Of a stretch of 64,000 nucleotides of DNA, positions 40,186 to 61,618 are shown piece after piece; within the stretch, counting starts at the first letter, position 1, and each line of letters starts with the position of its first letter. The notes below the pieces were generated by a model that searched no databases, was not told the origin of the DNA, and saw nothing but the letters and a program-made list of their open reading frames with translations. The translations under genes were made by a program, and so were the position numbers. The DNA is from Obelidium mucronatum. Lineage: Eukaryota > Chytridiomycota > Chytridiomycetes > Chytridiales > Chytriomycetaceae. The DNA lies in contig JAIVFH010000111.1 of assembly GCA_025765595.1 (NCBI GenBank), positions 1 to 64,000 of the forward strand. Direction: 5' to 3'.

Positions 40186-43100
40186 TCACTCCGAGTCATT
40201 CAAGTCCTCGCTCATTATATCTGAGAGTTCTGACAATTCACCATCGTCATCCCATACAGCCAAAGATGCGCTTATGACTGGTGCTATGCTCCCAACGACT
40301 GGAGCAACACTCTGGCCAGGGATGCTGGCCTCCAAACCCGCTTCCTTCGGCTTCGCTTGTGTTTCACTGGTTTTCCGGTTTTGTTTCGGTGGTTGTGGCG
40401 GTTTGGGCGGCTTTGGAGGAGGTGGCGGTCGTACCGTTCCTTTCGGGACGCCACATCGTTGCATGTGATACCTCAATCCATTGATGCTGGAGTACTTTTT
40501 TCCGCAACGTGGCGTCAAGCATTCAAATACTTCTTTTGGACCGGAGCCTTCTTCGTCACTGTCACCACCGCCATCATCTTCCACAGGAACGCCGTCAGGG
40601 CCCATAATAGGAGGACCAAAGTCTCCAACATCCCCAAATCGGTACCCATCCGGAAACCCTTTGCTGTTGGAATGCATAAACTTCAAATGATACCGGAGTC
40701 CATTCGCTGTGTTGTATGCTTTACAACAAGTAGTAACAGGACAAAAGTAATCCTTTTCGCAGGTTGTCGGGTTCCAGACCCAACATTTCCCGCTTCGAAG
40801 AACTCTGCGACCACCGTACGCTGCGACATCAACCTTGGGAAGCATTTTGATCATAATCTGGTAGAGCGTCAGTCCCTTTTCAAGAAGTTGCGAGACCTGA
40901 AGTGCTTTTTGAGCATGTCGAACAGACTGGAACTTGGCGACAAATGAGGCAGCGAGCGGCTCTGCGGGTATAGGCGGGATGGGTATCCGTTCTACTTCTT
41001 CAGCTGTGAGAGTGGGAACAGTAGCTGATCCATAATTTGTTGTGTACACACTGGCTGCTGGCGCGAGTCCCGCTGATGATGACGAAGATCCTCCCGCCGC
41101 TGTTCCTAGCGCCGCCGGCGCAGGTTCTGCTGGAGGCCTCGGACGAATGGCTGGAAGCGGGTGTTTTTTGTAAGTCTTTCGAGGTTTAAATGCTGCAGCT
41201 TGTGGTTGAAACGGGCGAGAATATATCGGGCGATACCCCGGTGGTAAATATTGCATTGGCGGTCTTGGTCCTGTTATTGGTCCACCAGGCCGTGGCATTG
41301 GCGGATATGGCATCATTGGTGGTCTCATTGACAGAGGTGGTCGGACATAGTAAGGCATTGGCATATGTGGAGGATATTGCTGTGGATGTGGTGGGTAGCG
41401 TTGCTGCTGATGTTGATGTGGTGGGTATAGATATTGAGGTGGCTGGTGTGGATAATAAGGGTGCGGAGGATAGTGAGAATAAGTTGGATGTGGAGGAGGA
41501 GGAAAGTAATTTGGCCGCTCGTCGGGAACAGATGATGTTTTTCGCTTCTTCACTGCTGGTCCAGATTCTGGTTCAGTTTCAGTCTCTGTATCATTAAACT
41601 CGGCCTCATCAGTTTTGCCCTTGTGCCCATTAATATTCTGAGCGGTGGAATCATAGAAAGTCCGCTCGCGTTGAAATGGGATAGGATTATAATCGTCAAC
41701 ATCATCGTCCAGATTCCTCCGATACTGAGAGGAGGGCGGCGAAGGAGATAGTTGAAGAGGTAGAGGAGGCGTTAATCTTTCTGGGGACGGGGAAGTTTCC
41801 AGATGCCGCGAAAGAGGAGTCCTTTGCTCTGAATCGGATTCCTCTCGTGACCGTTTCAGGGAACTTCCTCCGGCTGTTGCGCTCAAGTTATCAAGCCTCT
41901 GAAGTGACTGAGCGATTTTGCTGGTAGTTTCTGGACTAAGATGCAGGGACGCTACATCTAAAGACTTCAACGTTGCTTTCAAGACTTCCTGCGCAGCTGC
42001 AGGACTAGGGGTCGAACCATCAGGCAACTTTGCCGAAGCTGCAGCAACGGATGGAGCAAGTCTTGAAATAACAGATCCAAGCCGATGAAGGAGTGCGGTC
42101 GCTTGTTGTGCTGTAGGAGGGTTATTACTTGAGGGAATGGGCGGAATTGATGATCTAGGTGGCGTTGGTGTGGCTGATGTTTGTCGTCCCACTTGCTGAA
42201 CCAGTTCTTCCAGCGGGGGCCGAAATGCTTCATTTTCTTTCAATTGTTGGTGATGTTGGTAAACGTCGTCTGTGTCATCTGGTTCGTTTTGTCGAGAATC
42301 ACTAAATGACTCAAATAAAATATATCCACCTTCCATACAGTTAGGAAGATCGGGAAACGCTTCTGGTGATGAAAAATTCATGGCATTGTAGTCGTGCCCT
42401 TGTGCTAAGTGTTCCACAGGTGACAGTGGCCTGTAGTTCTCGTTCCCTAAACCCACCGATGAAAATTCAGTTCCCATTTCAAGAGCGTAAAAAAAAATTA
42501 CCGTTTTCTGGAACAGCACTTTGTTGAAAAACAATTGGTCCGGTTGATGATGTCTCCTGAGCTGCCTCTGTCGCGGCTAAATCCATGGCATCTTTCAACG
42601 TCAAGACTATTGGCTCTGCAACAGGGGTCTGCATATGGTTGGCTAAAAATGATTGCTTTAATAATGATGTCAATAGATGTATGATTTGACGCACACTGAA
42701 TCGTTCGCGTAGGGGGAAACAGGACGTCCTCAGCTTCAGAATCCATTTCAAAGTCATCCCCAAGCTCCGTTAATGGCGACAGAGAATCGAACCACAGCAC
42801 TGAAGGTGGAGTTGGAAAATGCTTCTGGACTTCAGTGGCAATGACCGTTTCATCTTCGACATTAAGAGAAGGGTTAGAATCTGACACTGTTGAAAACGCT
42901 GCTTCGTTTTCCTCTTCTGGTTGAAGTAAAGATGGATTCACAGCTGTCTCGTCAAAATCGTTCGCAAGAGCCTCCACTGAATCACCTTCGATTCTAGATT
43001 CTAAACTAACTTCCCTAACAGCTCGAGATTCGTCTGAAGGCGACCCAACTTCCAACCCTGCTGGCGACAAATAACTGTCATCTTTCCCCATGAATTCAGA

Positions 43101-46100
43101 AACAACGGGCTCAACTGCTTCCTTCGAGTTCCTTGCTTCTACCATAACTTCACGGACGTGTAAATGAGCGGGCTGAACTTCGTCAATAACGCCATAAAGT
43201 GCATCATGTTTTCCATTCAATACAGCTGAAATCGGAACAAAATGGCACGAAGGAGACTTTGATCTTCGAGGAGGTTGCAGTATTGGCGAATGTTGAGGTA
43301 TCACATCGTCATCGTCATTTTCATCATTCAGATCTGAGGATTAGAATTTAAATACAACATACTTCGAACAAAACCTATCTCTTTCAACTCACCATTCTCT
43401 CCCAGATCCGGGGAATCTTCGCTTAAACCAGGACTCGTGGAGGTCGCAGACAATACATCCTCAGACACTTCGCCGGCACCAAACTCCTTTGAATCATCGA
43501 TATCCATCAAATCTTGATCCACCTCATTCTCCTGGTCTTCATTTTCTTCTTCCTCTATTGCCGGCGGGGTTTCGGGAACAACTTCCAACTCGCCATCTTC
43601 ACTTAAATCTTTTCCAGAATCACCTCTACGCACAAATTTCTCATCCAACAATAAATTGGGGGTGTTATCACTGCCATCCTGTTGCTCGACTTCCAACAAG
43701 GCCTCAACAAGCGACTCGTCGTCCTTTTGGACTTCAGGAAACTGTGTTGGCTCGATATCCAGATCATTTGACTTATTCTCCAAAGAATCAGCATCATCGC
43801 TTTGATAGAGTAGTTCCAGTTGGTGTGACGGTGGTTCAAGAGTGGCTGCGATAACATCACTTTCCCCAGGTTCCGCCAATTCAATATCTGAAATTTCCGA
43901 TATATCACCATCATCAAGCGGTTTACTTCGGTGCATAGCAGATGATTTTTGCAGAATTGGCGACATTGGCAGCGAATCAACGTCAAACTCCACTTCTTCC
44001 CGCTCCAGCTCATCAGCAGAATTTTCCATAAAGTCCACTGACGGATCATCAATGCATTGAAAATAAGTAATCTCGTTGATCGCGGTTCGTGAGCTCAAAA
44101 GAATACGTTCCTCCACAGCGGAACAAGAGTGCAAATCCTTGTGAGTCGGCATCTCCGATGAAACACTACTTTCCGGCATCGCTTCTTCTTCTTCATCAAA
44201 GACAAGTGGATTTGCGTGTAATTGCTCGGTAATGCCGTCTTCTGGATCTACAGATGCTGTTCCAGAATCATATTCTTTGGAGACACTAACTGGACTCTCC
44301 CAGACAAAGTTTTCACTCGCTTTTTCTTGATGAACCACATCTGTCGGGATATCGAACTCATCGTCGACCATATTTTCCTAAGATCATTAATTACTACAAA
44401 ACAGAAAGGAAACAGCAACTTAAGTAAACAAACAAAACCTGCAACTCTGTGGATGTTCGAATGCGTGCTTCATCTTCCGCAACAGAATCGCCGGCAGTGA
44501 GAGTAGTTTCCAACTGAGGCGTTATCATCGCCTCTTTTGCATTACACAAGCCCTCTGTTTCGCCGTTGAAGGAAATATTCGGTTGATTGATGTCATTGGG
44601 TTCCAGCGTATCCTGCGATGATACTTCAATTTGCGTTCCACTCATCTCAATATGATGCTGCCAATAAAAACGTCAACATTCCGGAAACAATCGACGCGGT
44701 AGAACAGTATAAACAAAAAACACATTCTTACCTCCACTTGCCCCTCGATAACCACAAACGAGGCTTCTTCTTCCCCCCCAAACGTCTTCTGGAGAAGGTC
44801 CATTTCGGATTGTTCAGAACAAAGGTCCATATCAACCACATCATCATCGTCTTCCTCCTGGTATTCATTGTTGTCAGAAGGGTACATTGAGGACCCAGCA
44901 AGATCTTCGGATTCGTCCAGAATAACTTCAAGCTCACTGCCACAATCTTTGTCATCGACTTTTTCATCAACTACAATTGCAGCAACAGAAGCGGTATGCG
45001 CATCTGGTAGAACTAAAGATCCTTGTACATCGTTTCCACTTGTCAAAGAGGAGGCTTCTGAATCACGCGTAATGTCCAGCACTTGCACATTATTTGTGCC
45101 AATAGCAGCAGCAGCAGACAGCATCTCCTCTCCAGCAGTCTCCTCAGAATCTTTCATCAAAGCACCAAACTGAATTGTCGTCTCCGATAATGAATTATCC
45201 AAACCAACTTCATCTTCCTGTTCGTTTGATGGATGTTCAGGTTCCAATACTTCTTGTGAATGCAAAGATTCCTCCACTTGTACAGACGCTTTTAAATCAC
45301 TATCCTCAGCCTCTTTGGTTTCAACTGATTCGATTCTTTTGATTTCCAAAGGCCGTCGTAAGCCCTCCTCTGGTTCAGGAGAAGGAGTAGGACTACTATA
45401 TCTAGAAACACCAAAAGAACAGATTGGGTGAGAAATTGAAAAACCCACGAAATCTCCAGCAAACAACATACCCTTGAATACCCAACAACTCCACAGAATA
45501 ATGATGCGTGAATTGAGTCCCCCGTTCCACAGCACACTGCCGCCGAGCCAATTCAACTGCCATTTCAACTGAATTATCTGCTTCCTCTCCGGATGGGAGA
45601 TCATCAACAATTACAACGCTGATATCGTCAACTCCATCTTCTTGCGGCTGCGGTATCGTCGTTGGTTCTTCGCTGTTACCGGATATTACGACTGCTACTT
45701 CTGGTTCCATGGCGGATTCATTCTCGGTTGTTGAAGTAAGTCCATCATTGATTTCCATGTGGCATGAATTAGAATCGCCGCTGCTGTCACGGGTCTCTCC
45801 AGCAGGTTGAATATCCCCATTGAAATCATGTTGCATAATAAAATCATCTAATTGAGGCGGCGGAGATGGGAACGACACGGGCGTGGAAATATGACTGCAC
45901 CAACAACAACAAAAAGGTTCACTTGTCAGTTCAAATGCACAAATTAGAATTAGAAAAATCAACATCAAACCTGCTGCTTTCTCCTTCAGACAGTTCCGCG
46001 TCATGTGCATAAATCATAGAAGATGACAATTCCTCCTCAGACTCAACTTGCAGCATCAAGTCTTGAACCACCTTTTCCAATGCTTGATCAACGTCATTTT

Positions 46101-47893
46101 CAGTGACTGCCTCTGGATCGAAATGAGGCGCATCGGATTTCTCCTCCATAACAGGTACTTCTTCAGCAGAAACTTGTTCAAACTGATTGGTTTCTTGAAC
46201 TGCAGAGGATGCTTCCAAAACTTTCTCATCCTCAACGCTTCCACTGCCGAAATCAGCCGTCTGCAAGGAATCATCCTCCACATTGTCAATCACAAGCGGA
46301 ACAGGAGAAGAGGGCAGCTCTACTATTCGAGGTTCTGGATCCATCATTTCCGAATCCATATCCAAAGACAACTGCTCCGCTGCCACTACCGCTTCTGAAG
46401 TCGGGGCTTTGATTTCAATTCCACTTGACTCCACTGGAACCAAGGCATGCTCCAAAGGCAGTGTCCTTGCGACAACAGCTTCGTCATCGCTATCACCGCT
46501 GTCAATCTCCATATCAACTACTCCATCGTCATCATCTTCATCTTCATTATTGTTATCAGTAACAACGTCGACGATTTCAAGGTCAGTTTGCAACACGTCA
46601 ACCGACTCCTCAAAATTTGCCTTGATTTCGGGCTTTTCAGCAATTGAATTGATTTCAGAGATAGGGGAGTGTACAGACACCACCATCGCATTATCATTAT
46701 TATCTGCTATGAAGGAGGGGAAAGACATCAACAAAACCGAAATTGCCAAAAAAAAAAAAAAATTACCACTCTTACCAGCTATACTTTCAGTCAAACTTGA
46801 AAGATTCAATGGCAAAGGACTTGCTGGAGAAAGTAATGGACTAGATACCACTGCCACGGCAGTTGCAGTCACTGAAGTGGCTGGTACATCCAAAAATGGC
46901 GTCGGCCGACCGTCATCCACAGACTCGATTTCCAAAACACCTTGCGATTCAGCAATCACAGGGATAGGCGATAAAACCTCCTGTGCCGAGAATGATGGTG
47001 ATGGCAAAGGCGGTGAAGGAGGCGGTGACAGTTCCACGACCACACCACAATCATCAAAATCAATTTCAACGGCGGCGGAAACTTCCTCTTTCTCCTCGTA
47101 GGTTTCCTCCTGGGGCCGTGATTCCTCAAGCACTTGTGCTGAAATGTCCGGAGACCCCGCCGCAGGCTCATGTGACCCCTCGACTGGAGCAATTATCTCC
47201 AAATGAGAAACAGTTTCTATCGGGACATCTAAACTTGATTCTTCCGCACCCCCAATGGCGGCATCGTCATTCCCAGGTTCAGGTGACATCGGTGAAGACA
47301 CCGCGTCGTCTATCCTCCTCTCTGTAACAACAGGAGAGTCTACTAGGGTCTCGATTTCAGGAGTACTTGAAACCACCCCAGTCGCTGAAGCAAGCACAGA
47401 CGGTTCATCCATTTCTGTATCCGGTTGGGACATTTCGTGGGTAGGAACAACACCAAGTGGAGCTACTACGATTGAACTTTCTTGAATATCATTGGTTTCG
47501 GTTTCGGGCGATAAAGCTGGATTTTCAATTGTCGTTGTTGCAGTCGGCGTTGCTGCTATTATTGGGTCCAGCGGCAGCTGCAGCTGAGTATTTACGGGTT
47601 CTTCCACCAAAGAAGACAGTGGGTCAGGTACCACCTCCAAATCACCTTCCTGCTGTTCAGGCCGTTCGGATTCATCCATAGAAGTAAGAGGTAGCGTTAC
47701 AGAAAGAGAAGAAACAGGAGCTTCCATTAATGGAATCCCGCCCATCTCAACGTCTTCCTCTTCAAACACTGACAACGACGACGCGCGAGTTTCTCCGTCA
47801 TCTTCTTTAACCGCTTCAATATCTAACCCTTTCTCCTCTTCCACCACCGCCACTGCCACTTTTACTTCATCCTCTTGCTGCATCTGCACAAGC

Positions 47894-47940
<47 letters not shown>

Positions 47941-50146
47941 CTGCCGCCGCCTCTCCTCCTCCTCCAACTCATGCCTCTCAAATTCAACATCCAGATCCAA
48001 ATCACAATCCAAAAACAATCCATCCAAATCCAAGTCTTCCAAATTATCGCAGGAGGAGGAGGTAGAGGAGGAGGAGGAGGGGTCCCTTTTTTCTTGCACT
48101 GAGGACCGGCGGCGGCGGGAGAGCATGGATTCCATGAATGCGTTCACGGTTTCTTGGACGGAGGGGCTTATTGTTGATGTGGCGCTGGTGGTGGTCGTGG
48201 TGGTTATTGGAAGAAGAGGCGTGGTTATCGTTGCTGTTGATGCGGATGCGGGTTCTAAAGGTGGGAATTCTTTGGACGGGAGTCGCGGCTGGGGAGACGG
48301 TGATGCGTTCGGTATTGTTGGTGTATTTACAAGTGGTGTTGATGATAATAGATCTGTAGCATCGGTTGATGGCGGCGGCGTCGGTGGTGGTGGCGGTGAT
48401 ACGGGTATTTGCGAATCTACTTTGGATACCAGTGGCTCCTCTTCCATCCTATCCACCTCCTCGTCCGGCAATGATTGAGTTTCACAAGTCTCTTCTATCG
48501 CTGGTATAGTTGGCGTCGTTATTGTTGCTGTCGGTGCGAGAACTGGTGGTGGTGGTGAAGACTTGCCCAAAGACTCAGAAACCGAATCGACAGAATCAAT
48601 CTCCGCTATAGGATCCACATGATTTCGGATTTCGGCAGATTCATGCTGCTGTTGCTGTTGCTGTTGATGACTGGGAGCTTCGATCAAAGGCGACGACGAT
48701 GACGATGACGACTCAACATGTTCTGAAACTTGTGGTTCTACAGATTCAATTGGTTCGTGTTCCGAATCCATGACAAAATCTTCTTTGTTTGTGATTTCTA
48801 CTCGTGGCGGCGGCGACGATGCCGCCGAAGATGGTGTGGATTCCAGTGATGTTGGCGGTTCAGCAACGAGCGCTAGACCCGATTCCTCGACTTCTATTGT
48901 ATCAATTAATATCTCCGCACAAGAATCCATTACACCGCATTCGATTGAATTCGATGGAGATGCTCGAGATGGTGAATGCGCTGCTGGAATATGAGGAGGC
49001 ATGTCAACATCCATCACCGTTTCCACGTCCGCCGTAGCGCCTTCATGCAGATCTTGATGTTGCTGCTGCTCGTGAACCATCTCACGATGCTCCTCCTTGC
49101 TCTCATCTATACATTCAATTTCCACAAGTTGTAGCTCCGTCTCAACAACAAGACGCGATTCTTCCAGAACACCAACATCAACATCATTCCCCACCACCAC
49201 CGTCGTCGTCGTCGGTTCAACAACCCGCACCGCCGCCTCTCCTTCTTCCTCCACACCAACAACAGCAACAACAGACTGCGGTTTCCGCGACGGAGACGCA
49301 GCCGGGAAATCCCAACCAGCAACACTATCCGGATTATGATACAAACAAGCCTCCCTCGTCTGATCACACCACGTCAAACCCTCTATACTACATGCATCGC
49401 AACACGGCGTTTCGACCCATGTACTCGGATCCACTATATCGTCGTCGTCGTCGGTGTTATCGAAATGGTTGGTGGTGGTACGGGGTTCTAGGGGTTTGAA
49501 TTCTGTTGAGTCTTTGTTGGTGGTGGAGAGACTGCTGCTGTTGCTGCTGCTGCAGAGAGTTGATGTGGAATATGACTGTAGGAGTGACTGTTTCGATGCG
49601 AATGGATCTGTCGGTTCCAAAGGATCTAATAAAGAAGACGTGGAGGAAGATGCTTTTGATGAACTTGACGAAGATAGAGACTTTGTGGCGGCATTATTAT
49701 TATTATTATTACTGGGATGGTAGAAATCGTATTCCTCTTGCTGCTGCTGTAGTTGCTGTTCATGGTATATTGAGGACGATAAAAAGTGCTCTTCCTGTTG
49801 GAAATAGTATGGATGGGGAGGTGGTGGACAGGCGGCTGCTGCGCTGTATAGGTCAAACGGCTGATTATTGTTGGGATTTTGAAGGTGGTGGAGATTGTGT
49901 GCGGATGTTTTACAGGATACGTTTCGATGGCGGCATTCTGAGCACCGTGGTTTAAAAGAATCACAGGGCAAGTTCCAGAGTATACACTCGTCGCAGGGTA
50001 TTAGCGGGGTCTGCTGCTGCTGCTGATGGCTGGTGGTGGTGGGAGGAGGAGGAGGATGACGAGGTATAGCCCGAGCTGAGTGGCTGGATAGGCAGTCGAG
50101 GACTTAATAGATTACTGGAAAAAGAGTATCGATGTTTGCGGCTCAT
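40186..50146 (-). CDS. Giant Zn2Cys6 + C2H2 regulator (about 3,140 aa)
   Basis: Nine exons: 50146-46776, 46706-45971, 45894-45472, 45401-44732, 44645-44439, 44377-43393, 43333-42697, 42642-42502, 42446-40186. All junction phases agree except 42697/42642. Near the N-terminus is a perfect Zn2Cys6 cluster (CDECILWNLPCD ... RCSECRHRNVSC, spacing 2-6-6-2-6). About 2,300 acidic, Ser/Pro/Gln-rich residues follow. At the C-terminus are two C2H2-like fingers, YFCPVTTCCKAYNTANGLRY and FECLTPRCGKKYSSINGLRY, separated by GFPDGYRFGD. Two one-base adjustments are needed: one C fewer in the C4 run at 50009-50006 to join MSRKHRYSF...SAAAAD to PLIPCDEC, and one C fewer in the C5 run near 42715. The same domain order in two other genes here supports one gene. 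A nuclear transcription regulator role is inferred. Confidence 0.68.
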
Positions 50147-50312
50147 TTTGAGTGACTGTCAAAGGGGGGGAAAAGTCTCTAATCCCTTTCTCCTTTTTTT
50201 TTGTTGCAAGTGAGTGAAAAATTTCAAATTTCTTCGCTTTCATGATTTGACAATTGGGACGGGTTTCATAAAACACGCTCTTTTTTACTTTTTATTATTT
50301 TAAATAAAACGG

Positions 50313-51752
50313 TTATCCCTCCGTCATGGTATCCATAGGTATGCATTTTCCACTTTCTTCTGCTTCCTTGATTGGCTCATCCTCATTGATGATGGGCATT
50401 GCTGAAGCCGCAGCAGGAGCAGCCTCAGCATCAACACCTGCCTTCATAGCATTCCTCCTCCTTACAGCCTGTAATTCCAAATTCGAAACGTCCACACCAT
50501 GCGCAGCCTTCAAATGGTACTTGAGTCCTCCCGCTGACGAATACGTTTTAAGGCACTTTTGTTGCTGACACGCAAATGGCAACTCTTGATAGGTCTCTCC
50601 ACTGGTACTATTCTCTTCTATCGTTTTTCCAGTCCAGTAATATCCTGATGGAAAGTCTTTTGGATTCGTGTGTTGACTCAAGTGGTACTGTTGTGGTATT
50701 GTTGGTTGTGTGAGTGGGTGAAATGTGAAAAGGTGACGTTTTTGAGTAGGAAAGATGCCTTACTTTTCACCTTCGGTGAAAATGAAATCGCATTTGGGCG
50801 TAAAGAAGGCAATCGGCAACAAACCTTTAAACCATTCGCAGTCCCATACTCCTTCTTACACGCAGGGCAAAAGTAAAACTTTTCACTCGTCACTGGATCT
50901 TCAATCCAAAGTTTACCACAAGAAAGTTTAACAAGAGGAGATCCGGGAGGTTTAGGAGGAAAACGAGCAACAACGACATTAGCAAGAGCAAGATTGGAAG
51001 AGTGAGAGAGTGGAAGGGGATAATGCTGTGATGAATAATCTGACAATGGCGCTGCAAATGCTGAAGATGTTGAAGATACTGAAGATGCTGAAGATGTTGA
51101 AGAAGCAGAAGATTCCGAAGAGGGAGAAACCAAAGCCGGAGGAGTGGGATCACTGTCAATCCGCCGCAGCCAGTTCCCCAATCAGAGAATCCAGCCTCGC
51201 GCGCACCAGCAGCCGTTTGTGTGCCTCCTCTCTGAGCATTTCCTCCTCGTGGCAGTCGTCGCCGACGGGAATCACGCGCATGTCCAGTTTGAGTGGCACT
51301 TCTCGTGTAACCCCCGCCGATGCGTACTCGCACACGCGGGCTTTTGCGGCGCACGTTTTGCACTGCGGGCGCCGCATGTCGCAGCGCGTCTTTTTGCGGT
51401 GGCACCACAGACACGCCTTGGCCGGCTTTTTCGCTTTTGGTTTTTTTGTTTTTTCCGCTTTCGCTTTCGTTTTGTTTTGTTGTTTTCGTTTTTGCTGTTT
51501 TCGTTTGTTGTTGCGGCCGGCGGCGACTGCGCCGACAACAACAACGCCGGCGCCGACGAGTAGCGGCACGCGCCGCCACGCGCGACGCAGCGCGAGCACG
51601 CCGGCTTCAGCGTGTCGCAGCGCTTGCGGGCCACGCGGCAAGCGTCGCAGATCAGCGGTCGCTTTTTTAACGCTGACGAAGCAGAAGCAGTACGTGTGTG
51701 TAGAGGAATATGCAGAACTGTGGGAAGAGGCCGATGACGCCATGCTGATCAT
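50313..51752 (-). CDS. Double Zn2Cys6 + C2H2 regulator, frame-disturbed
   Basis: Two exons, 51752-50825 and 50687-50313. Exon 1 holds two Zn2Cys6 clusters: CDACRVARKRCDTLKPACSR plus CVARGGAC, and CLWCHRKKTRCDMRRPQCKT plus CAAKARVC, each with spacing 2-6-6-2-6. A Lys/Asn-rich linker lies between. A C2H2-like finger FYFCPACKKEYGTANGLK is split by the 137-nt intron and continues YHLSQH; then DFPSGYYWTG and a second finger FACQQQKCLKTYSSAGGLKY. Three one-base adjustments in homopolymers are needed: A6 near 51665, the A-rich linker near 51440, and G4 near 51178. Each restores continuity (SVKKRPLICDAC; LDSLIGNWLRRIDSDP). Without them the gene would be dead. It sits 166 bp upstream of the giant paralog, same strand. 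Confidence 0.66.
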
Positions 51753-51976
51753 TGCTAACGCCGCTGACGCTTCGGCGCTGCTGGCGACCGTCGAGAACGG
51801 CTATCATGACTGTGTGTGGCTTTTCTTCCAAAGAAAAAAAGACAAGAAAAAAGCGAAAATCGCGGAATATCCACGCGGGGAATACCGAAACATGTCAACT
51901 ATTACTTAAATTCAATTATTATGTTGAGGGCGTGAATCATATTCCTTAATCTATTTCTTACACATTGTAATGCCGC

Positions 51977-52018
<42 letters not shown>

Positions 52019-52230
52019 GTTGGTTGTCGCTGCAGGTGGTTACACAACACTAAAACTCACTTTCTTTTCGCGAATATATACCGCCAAGTGGCTGTTAACC
52101 ATATTGTTAACTCTCTAGAGCCAAATCTTTCATGAAAACGGACAAATGTTTCTTGACAACGAGGTCTTATGACAATAAGAGAACAACAAATCAAAACTAA
52201 ACTTAAAAACACCAAAAAACAAAAATACAA
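51753..52230. other. Intergenic with long T tract
   Basis: No gene recognised. It carries a 37-base T homopolymer at 51981-52017 and AT-rich flanks between the regulator gene start and the AOX 3' end. Confidence 0.5.
51981..52017. repeat. 37-base T homopolymer
   Basis: Uninterrupted T run; the length is likely unreliable in the consensus. It could be a nucleosome-free tract or the A-tail of an old retro-insertion read from the minus strand, but no element body is recognisable. Confidence 0.9.
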
Positions 52231-53425
52231 TCAATCTTCCTTGGCTTTTGGATTTGGTTCATCCGCCCTCAACGCAGCCAACATGTGATTTGTATCACGG
52301 TGATCCGCTTCATCCGCTCTCACTGCCGCAACCACATCCTTGATTGTAGCATCCTCTTCCAACCTCCAATAAAACCTTGCAATCTCTGGCGCCTGCTGCG
52401 TCCCCCAATGCTTGATCCTTCCATGCTCAATATCCTTCAAACAAAGCATATACGTGTGAACAGCGCTTTCTTCCAAATACCCCACGAACCGATGGCACGT
52501 TTTCGGGGAAAGGAGGTAACACAGGAAATAGGCGTTGAAAAAGATTCCTTGCGTGATGAGCACGGCGCCACGGAAAAATGGGCCAGGTGCTTTCAGCTTC
52601 ATGAATGTCAAGAGATGCATTCGTTCGTTTTCTGCTTCTTCGAGGAGTGTGTGGATCCATCCGTGGTCTCTGGTGAGGTTTCGGAGTGAGTGTAAATGGC
52701 GGATCATTCCAGCAACCTTTTTTTTTTTTTTACATTTGTTAAAAAAGAGAATGGAAAGAGCTGTAGCAAAGTCTTAAGTTGAGGTACACCCGCCATTAGG
52801 AATACAAGGACGTCTTTTCGCCGCCATAAACATATTCTATGGCGGTCCGGGTATATAAAATCGCCTTCGGCGAAAAAAATGCGATTACTCACCATTCCAG
52901 GAACACCAGCCACAGTCTCCAAGAAACAGATCCGGTTCAACCACTGCTTTTCAGTCATGATGCCCACTTTATCCGTATACCCCGTAGCCGAATCGAATCC
53001 TAAATCATGAAAAAAAAGAGACAGTCAGACAAGAAAAGAAAAAGTGAACATTGTGTCTTGATCAATCAAAATGAAAAAATAACCCCCTAACCAAATCGCA
53101 TCAGACGAACAAGAGAATACGCAATCGTGTCTCTGATCCCAGTTACATTGCGATGCGTGTATGTCGTAGCAGTCAGTTCTTCTGGCGTGTACACAGGGTG
53201 ATGGAGGACATAGTCCTTGCTGTCAAGAGGTCCAGTGGTGGTGGCGGCGTTCAGGGCTGCCTTGACACGTTTCGGATGAGGTGCTTGAGAGATTGATGTT
53301 GTAGTGTTGTTTGCTCGTTGTAGTAGCAGGTGGTGGGTGATTGTTGGTGTTGCAGATCGGGCCAGCCCCAGTTTGTGGTTTTGGAATACTGCTGCTGTTG
53401 CGGGAAGGAAACGTCTTTGAAGCAT
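52231..53425 (-). CDS. AOX1: Mitochondrial alternative oxidase
   Basis: Three exons, 53425-53092, 52999-52893 and 52716-52231, phases consistent; 308 aa. The start [15 protein letters not shown] gives a basic mitochondrial targeting sequence; an upstream in-frame start was rejected for that reason. Family motifs include [58 protein letters not shown] and [14 protein letters not shown], which contain the Glu and His ligands of the di-iron centre. It oxidises ubiquinol with oxygen, bypassing complexes III and IV without pumping protons, on the matrix face of the inner membrane. Intron 2 carries two hairpins and ends in an A-run before its AG. Confidence 0.95.
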
Positions 53426-53826
53426 TCGTGTCTTGTTTGTCGTTATATGAATACGACTTGTTTTTTTTTGGGTTGTGTTTCTATTTATGGTGAAATACAG
53501 TGCTTTTTCATCACGTTCAGCCTCCAAATTTGTCGTGAATCACAGGAAATTTGTCAGCAACAGAGCACACGTTTTTTGTTGGAAGCGTATCATCATTGTT
53601 GACTGAATAGCTTTATGTCTCGAGACCTCGGTGTGGTCAATTGTCATTGGTTAGGGCGATTAAAGTTTTCCATACTGATTTATGGCGATAAGATTGGATT
53701 TGAACGGTCCAATTTTGTTGGACAATAGCGGGATCGTGAATGATAAAATGATTTCTGAATCTATTGCTTTATCCTTAGTAATAAGTTTTTTTTTAACGAA
53801 TGATTTGAAATAAGAAGAGAAATTAA
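53426..53826. other. Divergent upstream region of AOX and the PAS/GATA gene
   Basis: About 400 bp between head-to-head start codons. No clear TATA or shared motif is recognised; likely contains both promoters. Confidence 0.45.
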
Positions 53827-55934
53827 ATGCCTCACCATCATCACCACCACTCCAGCACTGCCTCGTCCTTTGCGCCAGTCCCCCCAGCGTACACTTCAGC
53901 ATCGTCTATTCCAGCCTCAGTCGCAACGGGAAGCAGTGCCCCGAAAGATAAAGACAAGGATCAGGAAAACAGCCGACATGTCGCAGCGGTTCTATCTCAG
54001 GTTTTATCGAGACTCTCCCCTATTTTTCTGGGTCCCTTTTTCTTAAATCATCAATACAAAAAAAAAGTTCACTGGATCGTCTGAAGCGTATGGCCGCCTT
54101 GTCCAAGAGAAAGTTGATTTGTTGGTTGTGGCAGAAACAGCACTCAACAATGCTAGTGTCGCTGAACTCCAGATTGCATACATTGCACCATCCTGTATGC
54201 GGATTATTCGGTAAAATCAGAGAAATATATGTATCATCAGGGGTGTATGTTGAAAAAAAATCCAACGTATTAGTTGCACACCTGCTTCCCTCCACCACAA
54301 GAAAATATCAACGATCCTGCATCCAGATGACACCTCTTTAGTCCTCGCTGTAATCTCTGCTGCGAAAACCGAAAACTACAAGAAATCAGTGTATTGCAGA
54401 GCTACCAGAATGGATCGGGTTGGGGAATACGTTTTAATGGATTTGTCTGTCGAATGGATTTCTCCTTCTGTTCCAGCTTCAACAAATTCAGCGGGTGCAA
54501 CTGAATCTACGCATGCCCTTTTGATTGGAAGAGTTTACATGTATGAATAGTACTTGCTTTAATTTGCCCCTTGCTTTAAAATAGTATTTTAACCTCTTGA
54601 TGACAAAACAGCCCTACACCAATCGACACCATCCACACCCTCCGTATCCAAAACCTACAATTAAAACACGCTCTCACAGAAGCAGTCAAAACCCGCGTCT
54701 CCAACGCAGTCTCCCACGCACCTACCGCCGAAATGGGTCGCTCCCTTGCCGAAAAGTCTGCTGCTGCTGTCGCGCTTCTCCGGGAACTGGATAACAACCC
54801 TTGGGAATCATCAGAGTTTGCTAGCATGGCGGATCTGATTGATAACGGCAACAACAACAACAATAACAATAGTAGTGAAGATAAGCGGAAAGGAAAGCGA
54901 CGCCTCATGGACGCGTCCATGCAAGGAGACGATTTGGACCAAGAACTCAACAGCATTTTGGGGTTGAATCAAATGGAACGGAGTAACCTTGGCGCTTCAA
55001 GTAGCAGCAGTACTGGAACACTTGGACTTGCCGCTGTCGTTGCGCAAAATAACGGCGTTGGACCTATGGCCACGGATTCGTCTATTTCTTTTGGGCTGTC
55101 TCCGTTTGGAGGAAGCGGCGGCGGCGGCGGCGGCGCGTTTGGGAATGCCTCCTCGTCTTCTACTGCGAATCTTCAGGGTTCATCTTCTTCGCCAACGGGG
55201 GGTGGGAGTGCAAATCAATTCCAAACAACGGCGCAACCAATGTCCACGTTTGATGGCGGTGTGTCTTTGACAGCTGCAGTGGGGGCCGGGTCTTCGCAAG
55301 CTGCTGTGAAAACGGCTGCAAAGAAGGGAGCCAAGGTATGTCCCCTTTCTTATTTATGCTTCCCACTCAAGTAATTTTCCAACGCATTGTATATTTTATT
55401 TCTTTTCACAGAGAGTTAAAATTCCTCAAGATGAACTGTACTGTCGTCAATGTGGGTCGACCACGTCCCCTGAATGGAGAAAAGGGCCATTGGGTCCCAA
55501 AACGTACGTTTATCCCACATGATTATTTATCCACCAAAAATATTCCAAAAAAAAATACAAAAACTCATGGATATATCTTTTTTTTTTGTTACAGATTATG
55601 TAATGCATGTGGTCTTGCCTACTCCAAGATGCAATCAAAACAACGAAAGCTCGCAGCCAAAGAAAAGGAAGCGCAAGCAGCGGGTGGATCTGGTCTTGCA
55701 GCAGCTGCAGTTTCAACCAACAGTAGTAGTAGCGGCCTTCCACCTCCCGCCGCCGGACAGCACCAGCACCACCAGCAACATCAACCCCAACTATTATCAA
55801 AGGGGAAATCAGGAACAGCAGGCCAGAATGCAAGTGTGTCTGCTGACTCAAATGACAGTGGAAGCCCATTTCCATCGGATGGGTTTCTGGCGGGGTTGGA
55901 AGCTTTTGAACATCAGTTTGGGAACTCTGGGTAG
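53827..55934 (+). CDS. PAS-domain GATA zinc-finger regulator (white-collar-2-like layout)
   Basis: Six exons: 53827-54000, 54068-54210, 54302-54540, 54612-55335, 55412-55503, 55595-55934; about 570 aa. After a His/Ser-rich N-terminus, exons 2-3 resemble a PAS fold (QEKVDLLVVAETALN, IAYIAPSCMRIIR, KISTILHPDDTSLVL). One base is missing at the 54210/54302 junction (A4 where A5 would fit). A low-complexity middle (poly-Asn, poly-Ser, poly-Gly) leads to a GATA finger: LYCRQCGSTTSPEWRKGPLG and, across an intron, LCNACGLAYSKM. PAS + GATA is the order in fungal WC-2, partner of the blue-light receptor WC-1, but the PAS match is moderate, so a general GATA factor is possible. It acts in the nucleus. 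Confidence 0.78.
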
Positions 55935-56154
55935 ATTTGAATAAATAACAAAAGTATCGGAATCGCGGGCCAAGATAATGCTCGTCTCTCACTTGGTGGT
56001 TGTGCAGATTATCAACAAGGAAGTCTTTTTCTTGTGGGGGTTTGATGGTCAGAAGCATACTCAGGGTAGCGGCGACCCTTGCGTTCAGCGCCGCACGATT
56101 TTATTACGTAAGCCTTTTTGTTAAAAAAATTTTATTTAGTCAACGATGTCGTCG

Positions 56155-56226
56155 GCACTGGTAGCTCAGTGGTAGAGCGTAGGACTGCAAATCCCGAGGT
56201 CATGGGATCAACCCCCATCCGGTGCT
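56155..56226 (+). tRNA. tRNA-Cys (GCA)
   Basis: Cloverleaf: acceptor GCACTGG/CCGGTGC (one G-U), D arm GCTC-AGTGGTA-GAGC, anticodon loop CTGCAAA, T arm ATGGG-ATCAACC-CCCAT, discriminator T at 56226. No intron. Oddities: the anticodon stem has an A-C mismatch, and the T loop starts ATC rather than the usual TTC. Confidence 0.85.
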
Positions 56227-56438
56227 AGAGTTTTTCTTGCTGTGGTGTGGTGCGGCAGGGTGCTACAGCGGCACATGTAGTGAGAAAGGAAGGTTCTCAG
56301 ACCTATAACCATAATCGCCGGCCAATTGTCTAGCAAAAATGTACAATAATTTGGCAATGCATTTTATTTATTATTACTTTCTGCTATATAAAAAAATGGC
56401 TCACGTATGTCGCCAAGACAATCAAACATATAACAAAA

Positions 56439-56699
56439 TCATATAAATTTGTTTCCAAAAGAAACATTGGTGTAAAACACAGGCGCCTTGTTTACAGTTG
56501 CCTTGCTCGCACCCGAGAGAATCTGCATTGTTTCTGCATCTTGTGATGGCATCGTTGATTCATGGCTCGGCGTCGTGCATACACGTCGTTTTTCAAGGAG
56601 TGGTGCATCATCATGGGAACTGTCGTGGTTCTTTGAGTCGTGCGTTTGAGCTTTAAAGAATTGGAAGGTCATTTGTTTGCAGTCAGTTTTTTTTGGCAT
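56439..56699 (-). CDS. Small unknown protein A, divergent pair member
   Basis: Single exon, 86 aa, MPKKTDCKQMTF to VFYTNVSFGNKFI. It shares with the protein starting at 56959 the order MP.K....K, AExMxxxLxGxxKxTxxKAP and a short hydrophobic end (KAPVFYTNVSF versus KAPIFFVPSSP), so the two are probably paralogs. A TATA box (56721-56728, minus) lies about 25 bp upstream of the ATG. No signal peptide, membrane segment or known domain was seen. A role in stress or wall adaptation would be a guess; none is claimed. Confidence 0.6.
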   Translation of the reverse strand: MPKKTDCKQMTFQFFKAQTHDSKNHDSSHDDAPLLEKRRVCTTPSHESTMPSQDAETMQILSGASKATVNKAPVFYTNVSFGNKFI

Positions 56700-56720
56700 T
56701 GCGTGGAAGTAAATATTGCA

Positions 56721-56728
56721 TTTTTATA
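56721..56728 (-). promoter_or_regulatory. TATA box for small protein A
   Basis: The minus strand reads TATAAAAA, about 25 bp before the ATG at 56699; the leader would be very short or the start lies slightly downstream. Confidence 0.45.
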
Positions 56729-56895
56729 TGTCATTTACGGGTGGATAAGTTTTTGCTTGGCCCTCGGATGCCGGATAAGTAAGCCAGAGAACCATGGCTG
56801 TGCCACATTTTTGGACCCCACGGTATCAAAAAAAAAGTGATAGCAGCTGTCACCCACGATTCGAAATGAATTTCGGATGAGCACAAAAAAAAAAG

Positions 56896-56903
56896 TATAA
56901 ATA
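56896..56903 (+). promoter_or_regulatory. TATA box for small protein B
   Basis: TATAAATA, 56 bp upstream of the ATG at 56959, the same spacing as at the chitinase gene. Confidence 0.6.
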
Positions 56904-56958
56904 CGGGCAAGGAATCGGCCCTTTTTTTTATTCATCTGCAACTTCTTCGACCAAAATC

Positions 56959-57153
56959 ATGCCAGCTTTCCTCAACTTTCCCAAGAACAACGACAAGAAA
57001 TCTTACACTCTCTTGGAAAAGACAACAAAGCCTACTTCCAGCAAGGCCGAATCTCTTGCTGAAGACCTCTTGAGGGGATCCACCAAGCCAACCGCAGAAA
57101 AGGCACCAATCTTTTTCGTCCCTTCCAGCCCAGGAATGTCCATTCATATCTGA
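56959..57153 (+). CDS. Small unknown protein B, divergent pair member
   Basis: Single exon, 64 aa, MPAFLNFPKNNDKKSYTLLE ... ending SSPGMSIHI. Lys/Ser/Thr-rich with the segment AESLAEDLLRGSTKPTAEKAP that resembles AETMQILSGASKATVNKAP in protein A. It has a well-placed TATA box, a purine-rich context before ATG and typical 3' AT-rich flank, so expression is plausible. Family unknown. Confidence 0.62.
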   Translation: MPAFLNFPKNNDKKSYTLLEKTTKPTSSKAESLAEDLLRGSTKPTAEKAPIFFVPSSPGMSIHI

Positions 57154-57372
57154 TGGACTGACCAACTACTACTTACTTGCATTGAACGCACATGAGAGAA
57201 TTCTCGTTATCTCTTGGCCTTCTGAAATATGGCAAGCGGGGGAAAAGGGGGTAACGGAACAACCCAGATTTGATTCTTGTTTTTTGCGTTTCAGAACTGA
57301 TCAATCAAATAAATAATCACTTTTAAATTTTATTCCTTTTTCATAACTTTGAAGTGACTCTCATTGCTTTTT

Positions 57373-58790
57373 CTAGAGCTTGGCCCTGTTTGCAACAGAT
57401 AAGTTTAACCGAAAACACAAGGCAAAAAAAATACAAACCAAATCATTGATTAAATCCCGTTTATCCTCTACACCCACAGACAGTCGAATCAATCCATCGT
57501 CTACACCAATGGATTTACGAACTTCTGGAGTCAAAGAGGCATGTGTCATGACTGCAGGAAGTTCGGCTAATGATTCCACACATCCCAAACTTTCCGCCAA
57601 ACAGAATAGCCTATTATCCCCCCCATATTACTAAGAATAAAATGAGCAAACAATAACAGAATTACGTACCTCAAGGACGACAAAAACTTGTTGCTCCTTG
57701 CCAAGTTTCCATCCTTGATTCGAAACGAAACCATCCCTGAAAACCCACTACACTGCTTCAACGCAAGATCATGCTGCGGATGCGATTTCAATCCAGGATA
57801 TATAACCCGCTCCACAAACGGCGACGACTCCAAATAATGTGCAACAAAGAGAGCGTTCTCTTGATGCTGCCTCATTCGCACTGCAAGCGTCTTTAACCCA
57901 CGATTCGCGAGGAAACAATCAAACGGCGAAGGGACACCTCCAATCGAGTTTTGAAGAAACGCAAGTCGTTTAAATAAGGGATCCGAGTTTGTAACTGCAA
58001 CACCCATGACGACATCTGAATGCCCGTTAATGTACTTTGTGACAGAGTGAACTACAATGTCCGCGCCGAGGTTGAGTGGGTTTTGGAAATAGGGACTCAT
58101 GAATGTGTTGTCAACTACAAGAATGCAGTTGGGATGACTATGGGCGATTTTGGCTACAGCAGCAATATCAACGAGACGTAGAGTAGGGTTGGCTTTAAAA
58201 AAAGGGGGGGTCAGCATTGAGTATTTTTGATTGTGGCAAACAAAAAAAAACGCACTTGGACTTTCGACCCAGATCAATCGCGTGTTTGTCTTCAAATGCC
58301 TCCGCACATTCTCTGGATCAAACATGTCCGCAAAATCAACTTGCACTCCGTTTGAATTCGCAACGTTGGTCAAATATCGAAAGGTTCCTCCATACACATC
58401 GTTGACGGCGATAATATGTGAGCCGGATTGCAGCAAGTTCAACACGGTGGCAGTTGTGACTGAGCCAGACGCGAAAGCAAGACAGTGTTTGGCGCCTTCT
58501 AACGACGCGACTGCTGTTTCGAATGCAGCGCGTGTTGGGTTTCCTGAGCGGGAATACTCAAAGCCCTACCCCCAGTGGATTCAGTGATCAAAAAAAACCA
58601 ACAAAGAAAGCTTTAAAAACATGCAGTTGGATACTTTATGAACGCCAGCTGCTTCTTGGACAAACGTCGTGGAGAGAGACAGTGCAGGCACAACTGCGCC
58701 TGTGATGCCATCGGGTATCTGGCCAGCATGGACAGCTCTCGTATCAAAGTGGTCGCGGGAGAATTTCGGATCAATGTACTTTGGGTCAAT
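57373..58790 (-). CDS. CYS3: Cystathionine gamma-lyase (first short exon not resolved)
   Basis: Exons 58790-58635, 58565-58256, 58192-57670 and 57610-57373 with consistent phases. Motifs: FDTRAVHAGQIPDG, EYSRSGNPTRAAFETAVASL, AVNDVYGGTFRYL, ESPTNPTLRLVDIA (spanning an intron), VDNTFMSPYFQNPL, and VHSVTKYINGHSD with the PLP-binding Lys. The end reads LFCLAESLGCVESLAE and ASLTPEVRKSIGVDDGLIRL. It converts cystathionine to cysteine, 2-oxobutyrate and ammonia (reverse transsulfuration), in the cytosol. The exon starting at 58790 lacks an ATG; a short upstream exon near 58815-58890 containing a C10 run is likely but its frame is unclear. A gamma-synthase is possible but the sequence favours the lyase. 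Confidence 0.87.
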
Positions 58791-59044
58791 CTGTGGCAGA
58801 GTTCAGTTTCGAATTGACGAGGGTTGGGGGGGGGGAGCTGGCCTTTGGTTTTGATGACATATTTTTGTTGTATGACGCAATGCAACCATGGTACACAATT
58901 TTAAGCAATTTCATGGAATATTGGTTTTAAGCTGTTTAAAAGCTTCTTTCCTCTTGTGAGCCGTGAGCGCAGGTAGCCGCATGGTCTGTCTTTTTTCAGA
59001 AACCCCATGAACTCAAGGAAAGGACAAATTTAGCAATCGGAGAA

Positions 59045-59488
59045 ATGGACGCGATTCTGAGATGGAGATACTATTATGTGATTGACGAAGTTGCCTACTG
59101 GCGTGTCGCTAGCGACAGAGGCGCTGGACAGCGAGCAATTGCACTGATTGCAAATACAAAAGAACGCAATGCGGATCTTGACCAACTCAAAGATACCCCT
59201 TACCAAGATCAAAAAAAGTGTCGGTTTCCAGCGTGGATTCAACGGCGCCAAGCAATCATCAGACGACGAATTGCGATAGTGGAACGGTTTCTGAATAAAT
59301 TGAAGTTAATGAATGGAGTAACTTGTGTGGGCGTCTCTGTGTAAGTGGGTGACAATTGGGATTTCGTACGCGTTCGATCGCGTTCCATCGCTCTCTTGTG
59401 TTTTAGCTGGCTTGATTCGGAACATTGCAGGGCCCACAAAACCCGAGCAGGTCTAAAACCAGTCTTTCGTAAAATCAATTACATGTAG
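59045..59488 (+). CDS. Unknown small basic protein, two exons
   Basis: Exons 59045-59340 and 59407-59488 (66-nt GT-AG intron, phase 2); 125 aa. It begins MDAILRWRYYYVIDEVAYWR, continues with a Lys/Arg-rich helix (AWIQRRQAIIRRRIAIVERF) and ends HCRAHKTRAGLKPVFRKINY. Splicing extends the frame exactly to a stop, which supports a real gene. No domain or targeting signal is recognised. Confidence 0.58.
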
Positions 59489-59880
59489 TTTATAAAACCT
59501 TCACATTACATGTTTAGATCGGCGTAGAGCTTTTCTCTAATGACCAACAAAAACAAAGAAAAAAATAAAAAAATAAAAAAAAAGAAACAGACTAATAATC
59601 TGTAAAGTGAATGGGGTGTTAAAAAAGCTGATTTATCTGCGTGAAACCCCACATTCCAAAGATTTTGCCTCACTACTGACCGTCAACAAAAACCATACTT
59701 GCACAGTAATACACACTAATCTTTCTTCCTCATACGGAAATTTGATGGCCGGAAACATTTAATTGACGTGAATTTGAAGCTCGGGAACGTAGTCATTTCA
59801 TTTCCAGATAGGCTTACTATCGCGTGATTGTAATTTCCAACCAAAAAAATGGGTACCAAACAACTGTTTCAGATAATATC
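59489..59880. other. Intergenic before tRNA-Arg
   Basis: A-rich; no gene recognised. Likely contains the 3' flank of the small gene and upstream tRNA context. Confidence 0.45.
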
Positions 59881-59952
59881 GGTCGGGTAGCGCAGTGGCA
59901 GCGCATCAGTCTTCGAATCTGAGGGTCATGGGTTCAATCCCCATCCTGATCG
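59881..59952 (+). tRNA. tRNA-Arg (UCG)
   Basis: Acceptor GGTCGGG/CCTGATC (two G-U pairs), D arm GCGC-AGTGGCA-GCGC, anticodon loop CTTCGAA with anticodon TCG, T arm ATGGG-TTCAATC-CCCAT, discriminator G. No intron. The last pair of the anticodon stem is T-T. Confidence 0.8.
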
Positions 59953-60358
59953 TGTATTGTGTATTGGCTTGTTGGGTGTGGTTTATTGTTTTTATGCACA
60001 AAAAAATAGAGTAGTCAACAACAAATACTGACTTTAAACTAATTGTATCATAGAACATGAATCAGAAGTGTAAATGTCCTGTCCGAATATATCCCTATAG
60101 TCAGTTTCTGAGACTCTGCTCTGACAACTCAATCCAAAGCTCCCAGACTTTCCAAACTCCCCTCCAACTGAAAATTCTTCAATGGAGATACTCTCTTTCA
60201 CTTTTTGTATACACCCGAACAAATGTCATTAGTATATCTTATTCTTGTATGAGAAAAAAAAATCTGTTCTGTATATCTTGTTTTTGTGTATACGTATATT
60301 TTTAATAAATCTATATTTTTCTAAAAGGAAAAAAAAAAAAAACTATACCCTCCATCTT
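59953..60358. other. Intergenic after tRNA-Arg
   Basis: AT-rich 3' flank of the minus-strand regulator gene; no gene recognised. Confidence 0.4.
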
Positions 60359-61618
60359 TTAATGAGAATGGTGCTTCAAATGATACTTTAACCCACTCAA
60401 TGCAGTATATCGTTTCCCACACCCAGGTGCTGTACAAGCATACCGATCGGTACTCGCTTTTCCACCGCCTCCACCATCTTCACCAACAACGACACCAGCA
60501 CTACTGCTACTACCACTACCATCACTACCACTACTTCCACCAGCACCACTGGTACCAGAACCCAAATCACCCCAATAATACCCCTCCGGAAACCCCTTCA
60601 GGGACCCCATCACCCCATTCCCAAAAGACGAATAATGCGACTCATTCATGTGATACTTTAACCCGCCTGGAGTCTTGTATTCACGGATACACGATAGACA
60701 GACGTAGTGTGAGGTTTTTGTGGGTGGGTGAAGGTAATGGCACATTTTCAGTTCGATTCTTCGGGTTGGGTGTGTGGGATGGAGGGTGGGTAGTTTGGAT
60801 GATAGGTAGGCTGCGATTGCGCCTGTAGAAGGTGTTGGATGTTGGGTATCGGTTGGAGTGTCGGATGTATACAATGGTGTAGTAGTAGTCGTAATAGCAG
60901 TTGGAATCCCATCATCGGCAGACTCCATCTTTATTTTCTTTGATGGAGGTGGTGGTGGTGATGGGGGTGGGGGTGAGTTGTTTGTCCCAGTAGCACCCAT
61001 TAAATCCGTAATCATTACGCTTAATTGCTCGCGTACTTGCATTGGAATTTCCTTTACAACGCGGTTGACTTGGTTAAGGATATTTGTTGTAAGCTGGTCA
61101 GGAGACGGTGTTGTTGATGTTGTTGCTGGATCCTCCGCCGGCGAAGAAGAAGAAGACAAAGAAGAAGAAGGGTTCAATGTGGATGGGTCTGCATTGCTTA
61201 TCTCCACTGCCAACGCATCCGAAGACGCATTTTCAGTATTTTCAAGCCCCGCCGTAAAGTACTCGCAGACCAGGTTCCGCAGGCGGCAGCAGCCGCAGCG
61301 CGGGCGCGCCTTGTCGCACTTTGTTTTGCGGGCGTGGCACGGCTTGCACGACACGGCGCGCGTCGCCGCCGCCGCCGCGTGAAGCACCCCCGCGCCGCGA
61401 AGCACCCCCGCGCCCCGCACGTAGGCGCACGTGATGCCGCGCTGCACGCAGCGGCCGCACGCAGGCTTTGCCGTGTCGCACTTGCGGCGCCACGCGCGGC
61501 AGCCGGCGCACGGCTGCGGCCGCTGCGAGACGCTGGTGTTGGCGCTGAAGTTCGACTGCCGCGACTCGGCGAGGAAAAGCATCGCATTCGCCGCTTCGAA
61601 GTCGTCTGCGGCGGCCAT
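60359..61618 (-). CDS. Double Zn2Cys6 + double C2H2 regulator (intact)
   Basis: Single exon, 419 aa. Cluster 1 (about residues 37-64): CAGCRAWRRKCDTAKPACGR then CVQRGITC. Cluster 2 (about 88-116): CKPCHARKTKCDKARPRCGC then CRLRNLVC. Both have the 2-6-6-2-6 Zn2Cys6 spacing. Middle: acidic/Ser-Thr-rich and a Pro run. C-terminus: YVCLSCIREYKTPGGLKYH with two His (C-x2-C-x12-H-x4-H), GFPEGYYWGDLG linker, then YACTAPGCGKRYTALSGLKY with two His (C-x4-C-x12-H-x3-H). The protein needs no frame correction and is the clean reference for this domain order. A DNA-binding transcription regulator is inferred; Zn2Cys6 clusters normally bind CGG half-sites. Confidence 0.85.
   Translation of the reverse strand: MAAADDFEAANAMLFLAESRQSNFSANTSVSQRPQPCAGCRAWRRKCDTAKPACGRCVQRGITCAYVRGAGVLRGAGVLHAAAAATRAVSCKPCHARKTKCDKARPRCGCCRLRNLVCEYFTAGLENTENASSDALAVEISNADPSTLNPSSSLSSSSSPAEDPATTSTTPSPDQLTTNILNQVNRVVKEIPMQVREQLSVMITDLMGATGTNNSPPPPSPPPPPSKKIKMESADDGIPTAITTTTTPLYTSDTPTDTQHPTPSTGAIAAYLSSKLPTLHPTHPTRRIELKMCHYLHPPTKTSHYVCLSCIREYKTPGGLKYHMNESHYSSFGNGVMGSLKGFPEGYYWGDLGSGTSGAGGSSGSDGSGSSSSAGVVVGEDGGGGGKASTDRYACTAPGCGKRYTALSGLKYHLKHHSH

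Follow-up and report, generated by a model that had tools for sequence, protein, structure and literature searches.

Chytrid genes joining Zn2Cys6 clusters to a finger module of Sfp1 type: a tandem array with a probable origin in lineage-specific fusion

Three genes of the chytrid Obelidium mucronatum (Chytriomycetaceae, Chytridiomycota) combine N-terminal Zn2Cys6 clusters with a C-terminal pair of C2H2-like fingers, and the question they raise is whether the finger pair is new or a known module in new company. The genes (A, a giant, B and C) lie in the 64,000 nucleotides analysed here, referred to as the window (C111:1-64000, in an assembly of 48.3 Mb in 694 contigs). We consider it probable that the split-finger module of Sfp1, a growth regulator of wide occurrence, became joined to Zn2Cys6 clusters in the Chytriomycetaceae and was duplicated in tandem, giving a set of lineage-specific transcription factors. 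The combination of Zn clusters with C2H2 fingers is as such already known; the analysis gives a likely origin for the part that was supposed to be new.

Motif positions were taken from a six-frame scan of the whole window, which found the motifs of all three genes where the original prediction had placed them, every one on the minus strand. Two Zn2Cys6 pattern matches on the plus strand were rejected as runs of Cys codons, and one extra [FL]PxGY match (LPPGYR, 41230-41247) lies outside the giant's finger pair. From about 40 kb onwards C111 is collinear with C30:172-222 kb, the longer matches being 90-98.6% identical, and we treat the C30 stretch as the presumed second haplotype. The parts of gene C are as follows.

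60359..61618, minus strand: gene C, intronless, 419 aa, one uninterrupted open frame
61427..61510, minus strand: first Zn2Cys6 cluster (Pfam and motif scan)
61265..61348, minus strand: second Zn2Cys6 cluster (Pfam and motif scan)
60995..61102, minus strand: predicted helix pair in the middle (predicted local distance difference test score, pLDDT, about 60-70; weak similarity to gene F)
60701..60826, minus strand: pre-finger block
60635..60700, minus strand: finger 1 (motif match 60650-60700)
60575..60592, minus strand: linker FPEGYY, its YYW a predicted strand
60362..60436, minus strand: finger 2 (motif match 60380-60436)

As gene C reads, the finger module follows two canonical Zn2Cys6 clusters in one uninterrupted frame, and both domain types of the broad Zn cluster plus C2H2 class are present in it. 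Pfam recognizes two Zn_clus stretches (E 5.5e-12); the fingers score below the Pfam C2H2 cut-offs. The other haplotype is deposited as BDR26DRAFT_918502 (P0003). All six indels between the haplotypes are multiples of three, and the ratio of nonsynonymous to synonymous change (dN/dS) is 0.45.

Genes A, B and C are members of an array in which at least seven genes, all on one strand, have clusters of Zn2Cys6 type; it extends beyond the end of the window. The three-gene family originally proposed is real and incomplete, as four more Zn2Cys6 genes belong to it, one of them beginning at the window end, and a second genus is also involved.

C111:63771-65192, minus strand (3' end in the window, 63771..64000): gene D, two Zn2Cys6 clusters, no fingers
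about C111:65.4-66.8 kb, minus strand, outside the window: gene E, two clusters and a finger pair
about C111:69.4-71.9 kb, minus strand, outside the window: gene F, two clusters and two finger modules
C111:76375-78546, minus strand, outside the window: gene G, one cluster, no fingers

On these gene readings the module is present in several members of the tandem array, and the family with its shared architecture, doubled Zn2Cys6 clusters and conserved inter-finger linker is confirmed. Genes B, C, D, E, F and G exceed the Pfam cut-off for Zn_clus, and the basic loop is retained, with 3-5 basic residues, in 11 of the 12 array clusters, the giant being the exception. Proteins matching genes C and F have been deposited for O. 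mucronatum; the one matching F (P0002) is its other haplotype, and its junction between the clusters agrees with the splice read here. Gene F has an ortholog in Siphonaria sp. JEL0065 (P0007), 59% identical overall and 85% in the second module, the finger modules being the best-conserved part. Between the haplotypes dN/dS is 0.10 in exon 2 of F and 0.34 in D, and in the window haplotype of E a frame break falls between the two fingers. Gene G ends in EDLNDDE and the giant's tail in EDLNDSE. Genome-wide there are 89 Zn_clus matches and 15 neighbouring pairs within 600 bases; ten of these are genes B-F in both haplotypes and the rest lie on C213, C31, C4 (two) and C506, so close pairs are not restricted to the array family.

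The original prediction also held that the middle of these proteins is free to expand. This fits the giant, whose middle is relaxed (dN/dS 0.42-1.05). The idea of a wholly free middle was dropped, since a helical stretch is common to the middles of F and G (5 of 5000 shuffles, and 0 of 5000 with the Siphonaria sequence). The likeness to this stretch is weak in gene C (131 and 58 of 5000), and the giant gave 2 and 1783 of 5000.

Where the finger module comes from was asked of the organism's own genome, with the second module of gene F as query. It matched gene E (E 1.0e-25), the giant (9.4e-19) and then an Sfp1-like gene on contig C13 (1.6e-17; 51% identity over 73 residues), with gene C at only 4.6e-5. 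A match like that on C13 lies on C403 and is probably the other haplotype of the same gene; C119 followed at 6.4e-8, and three more matches lay above E 0.02. In the C13 gene a finger at the N-terminus, FCKDFWCCGLVLEDLHELNKHIQEAH, is followed by a pair at the C-terminus whose linker reads ELPSGYYFG; the whole of contig C13 has no Zn_clus match. A search with this gene returned 666 proteins at E<=0.001, of which 120 were listed. Among those listed, the best were from Siphonaria, Podochytrium, Chytriomyces, Physocladia and Entophlyctis, and most relatives carry the depositors' name 'Transcriptional regulator of ribosomal biogenesis proteins', which we take to mean Sfp1; one listed match is named transcription factor SFP1. 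Of three Sfp1-like proteins scanned with Pfam PF17017, P0008 and P0010 pass and P0020 does not. None of the 120 contains the Zn2Cys6 pattern or PF00172.

The likeness of the array genes to this family (Sfp1/JAZF1, PF17017) extends over several features. All six Chytridiales Sfp1/JAZF1-type proteins P0008-P0013 carry the linker NELP[SEA]GYYFG at the place of the array linker, the pre-finger block is likewise common to both, and both end in a GLKYH-type split C2H2 pair, diverged in gene C and with a C2HC second finger in the giant. A phase-0 intron inside finger 1 (NGLK|YH) is shared by gene B and the C13 gene. On these sequence comparisons the array module is homologous to the Chytridiales Sfp1 module. 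The original prediction had seen a new signature in the linker and finger core; both occur in the same form in one group of Chytridiales Sfp1/JAZF1-type proteins, and the linker was dropped as the mark of a new finger class. Elsewhere in the family P0016, P0017 and P0019 have GMPxGFLxG in its place, and 96 of the 119 Sfp1-type finger pairs scanned have no such linker motif. The array proteins differ from Sfp1 at the other end: the N-terminal finger of Chytridiales Sfp1 (FCKDFxCCG...LHxLxxH) was not seen by eye in C, B, E, F or the giant, which have one or two Zn2Cys6 clusters instead.

In a tree of 18 module rows, rooted on Polychytrium and with gene C left out, the seven fused modules formed one clade (98/95 support, 98% of bootstraps), nested in a clade supported at 97/93 that also holds the Chytridiales Sfp1 rows, and placing the giant with those rows instead was rejected (p 0.018). 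An AlphaFold2 model of the giant's module (16 sequences, mean pLDDT 78.5) had ten-residue means of 79-97 over residues 21-120. Besides the helix of finger 1 it shows two longer helices and three strands, and YRF of the linker forms a further strand at 120-122. The much weaker gene C model (mean pLDDT 55.5) also made the linker's YYW a strand (347-349). Finger 1 and linker may form one composite fold.

Several results weigh against this account. The PxGYY linker is missing in the Sfp1-type proteins P0082 (from Obelidium), P0108 and P0111, so the parent would be one Sfp1 subgroup. None of the four array members scanned passes PF17017 (C 17.2, F 24.6, giant 23.8 and E 22.6 bits; gathering score 27 bits), and an exon-by-exon search of the genome gave seven matches, none above the cut-off. 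When gene C and distant Sfp1 rows were included (36 rows), one origin was still the best tree but at 56/83 and 58% of bootstraps, and the branch of gene C was very long; in the 18-row tree long branches also lead to the giant, B and E. The gene model of the Siphonaria ortholog shows one Zn2Cys6 cluster only, the first being missing. Foldseek found no PDB match for the predicted module at E<=0.001. DNA binding, dimer function and coactivator contact are predicted roles, and choosing candidates by exact words may leave fused homologs in other places unseen.

The first protein search used the family alignment and, limited to the 7991 candidates with most words in common, found five proteins, two from Obelidium and three septin fusions; a region search (236 candidates) brought in Siphonaria. 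The septin fusions (Russulales, P0004-P0006) join a septin domain to two Zn2Cys6 clusters and are perhaps fused gene models. An NCBIfam search gave nothing relevant, and a PDB sequence search with gene C returned generic fingers and Gal4-type clusters, with no solved Sfp1/JAZF1 split-finger module.

The other two of the three genes, A and B, are less straightforward to read.

40186..50146, minus strand: gene A, about 3,190 aa as read in the window; N-terminal Zn2Cys6-like cluster, acidic/Ser-rich middle, Pro-rich part, C-terminal split-finger module
49912..49995, minus strand: gene A, cluster with Zn2Cys6 spacing (motif scan), loop 1 without basic residues
49345..49404, minus strand: gene A, possible half of a second Zn2Cys6 cluster, CCDACSIEGLTWCDQTREAC, suggested by the sequence
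40744..40941, minus strand: gene A, pre-finger block (two longer helices, strands)
40672..40743, minus strand: gene A, finger 1, C-X4-C-X12-H-X4-H (motif match 40687-40743)
40639..40656, minus strand: gene A, linker FPDGYR, its YRF a predicted strand
40453..40521, minus strand: gene A, finger 2, C2HC (motif match 40465-40521)
50313..51752, minus strand: gene B, two Zn2Cys6 clusters and a finger pair, the window copy broken by indels
51566..51649, minus strand: gene B, first Zn2Cys6 cluster
51330..51413, minus strand: gene B, second Zn2Cys6 cluster
50825..50869, minus strand: gene B, finger 1, first exon part, ending NGLK
50688..50824, minus strand: gene B, phase-0 intron splitting finger 1, read by eye
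50637..50654, minus strand: gene B, linker FPSGYY (motif scan)
50499..50570, minus strand: gene B, finger 2 (motif match 50514-50570)

A single-gene reading of the giant is possible from just upstream of its cluster to the stop codon; it takes six GT-AG introns, each 46-68 nt long, and gives 3196 codons with the stop included. The cysteine spacing of the cluster is exact, a pattern found in none of 20000 shuffles of the spliced protein, and there are no basic residues between Cys2 and Cys3; Pfam gave no Zn_clus match at E<=1 in the 1390-aa N-terminal frame. The last ligand of the second finger is Cys. Between the haplotypes the cluster and pre-finger segments are without any change, the fingers have one synonymous change and the tail three, none being nonsynonymous, and dN/dS is 0.17 directly after the cluster and 0.11 at 42.35-41.0 kb. 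Compared with the other haplotype, the window haplotype has its start codon shifted by one base from the frame of the cluster. In gene B the window copy differs from the other haplotype by five frame-changing indels within 51802-51159; in that haplotype a 370-codon open frame includes the two clusters and continues into finger 1 as far as the intron. Between cluster 2 and the finger-1 exon there are four changes, all of them nonsynonymous; the six changes in finger 2 and the tail, too few to interpret, give a dN/dS of 1.26. Numerous indels of 1-2 bases break frames in either haplotype (C111/C30; C13 vs C403), the conserved Sfp1-like gene on C13 being hit as well, and they reflect either assembly noise or widespread allele decay.

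Against this background the giant might be two or more adjacent genes, with the cysteine cluster encoded by the first and the Sfp1-like fingers by another at the C-terminal end. Its length and low-complexity middle are unusual, dN/dS in that middle locally approaches neutrality, there is an internal ATG at about 42.48 kb, and the other haplotype carries frame breaks of its own, several of them in the middle. We nevertheless think this reading somewhat unlikely. Both ends are constrained and on the same strand, and the six short introns that keep the 9.9-kb stretch open are fewer than in any of 12 control stretches read in three phases each (the opposite strand, four further loci taken on both strands, and three shuffles). 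Five of the controls could be read through in a single phase, with 23, 43, 52, 53 and 53 introns, and the rest in none, although for this comparison the end points and frame had been picked for the gene. Decay is a further reading, since the frame breaks in both haplotypes of A and in the window copy of B, together with the loss of the basic loop from the giant's cluster, could mean that A and B are in this strain decaying pseudogenes of an expanded family. Against this, the second cluster (85 codons) and finger-1 exon (59 codons) of B show no nonsynonymous change between haplotypes, and the breaks are not the same in both haplotypes. As one copy of the Sfp1-like gene is broken too, such haplotype-specific breaks point to assembly noise as much as to decay, and we regard pseudogenes as unlikely.

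It might still be argued that the array encodes ordinary dual-specificity factors, the known fungal class combining a Zn cluster with C2H2 fingers, whose generic fingers happen to be C-terminal. That class is recognized and widespread: PMC5415576 counts such proteins in 140 of 191 fungal genomes, with up to 23 per genome. Doubled Zn2Cys6 clusters also occur outside the array, in Obelidium genes on C31 and C213, with no such module seen in their open frames, and in the septin-fused Russulales proteins. The array fingers, however, are not generic, as the pre-finger block, the linker type and the intron of gene B are common with the Sfp1-like gene. The order of the domains is also reversed. In the nine dual-specificity factors of Aspergillus nidulans, two C2H2 fingers precede one Zn cluster, N-terminally in all but one (PMC5415576), whereas here one or two clusters come first, at the N-terminus, and Sfp1-type fingers follow more than 100 residues later at the C-terminus. 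We therefore hold this explanation to be quite improbable. What the array shares with the A. nidulans factors, and with Cmr1/Pig1, is the presence of both domain types in one protein.

With fusion and tandem duplication as the preferred reading, a history and a mode of action can be proposed. The module comprises a helical/strand block, finger 1, the P-x-G-Y-Y linker and finger 2, and the N-terminal half one or two Zn2Cys6 clusters. A single fusion may have occurred in an ancestor of Obelidium and Siphonaria, followed by tandem duplications that left two members without fingers and one with a doubled finger module. The array clusters resemble those of Gal4-type factors in their basic loop (11 of 12), and since it is kept in genes B-G, their clusters are likely to bind DNA. 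Because the giant's cluster has lost these residues, it probably no longer binds DNA in the usual way, and the giant would probably work through its finger module alone. Gal4-type factors act as dimers; B-F differ from them in having two clusters per chain, and Pfam gave no fungal-specific middle domain in C and F (E<=1) or in D and E (E<=0.1). The two clusters of one chain could read two half-sites, replacing the Gal4-type dimer, while the Sfp1-type module would add contacts to DNA or, like yeast Sfp1 with NuA4, to a coactivator. Activation may come from the middle and tail, which are acidic or rich in proline.

Yeast Sfp1 has an interaction with NuA4 that is probably direct, and in mammals JAZF1 is one of the subunits of NuA4/TIP60 (PMC13254600). 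By one method the sites of yeast Sfp1 show enrichment for gAAAATTTTc, and by another they depend on Ifh1 (PMC11446548). As a tentative extension, less likely than the fusion itself, tandem Zn2Cys6 clusters acting as a built-in dimer might, through expansion in the array, have given the Sfp1/NuA4 activation machinery new promoter addresses. Finger 1 would then be no free finger but would belong to a composite fold, formed when the YYW strand of the linker joins the pre-finger hairpin.

In the open-access literature we found no description of Zn2Cys6 clusters joined to an Sfp1-type module, and the array architecture is not described in the available portions of PMC5415576, PMC8396895 and PMC4192604. 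The Siphonaria ortholog P0007 is like gene F in its two finger modules and differs in that its gene model has the second Zn2Cys6 cluster only.

The array is interspersed with other genes. An alternative oxidase gene (52231-52773, minus strand; Pfam AOX, E 1.4e-70) lies between B and C, and a gene for a pyridoxal phosphate-dependent enzyme of Cys/Met metabolism (57567-58565, minus strand; E 4.8e-110) within the array. Pfam ankyrin matches mark an ankyrin-repeat gene nearby in the window (38026-39024, plus strand), and C111:72.3-74.4 kb and 80.0-81.2 kb, outside it, look by eye like further ankyrin-repeat genes.

Zn2Cys6 factors make up a small fraction of chytrid transcription factors (PMC5415576), and the array offers a worked case of such factors gaining partners and multiplying. 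Sfp1/JAZF1 is a conserved regulator of ribosome production, and natural recombinants that carry its module apart from the rest of Sfp1 and linked to different DNA-reading domains would allow the module to be tested on its own.

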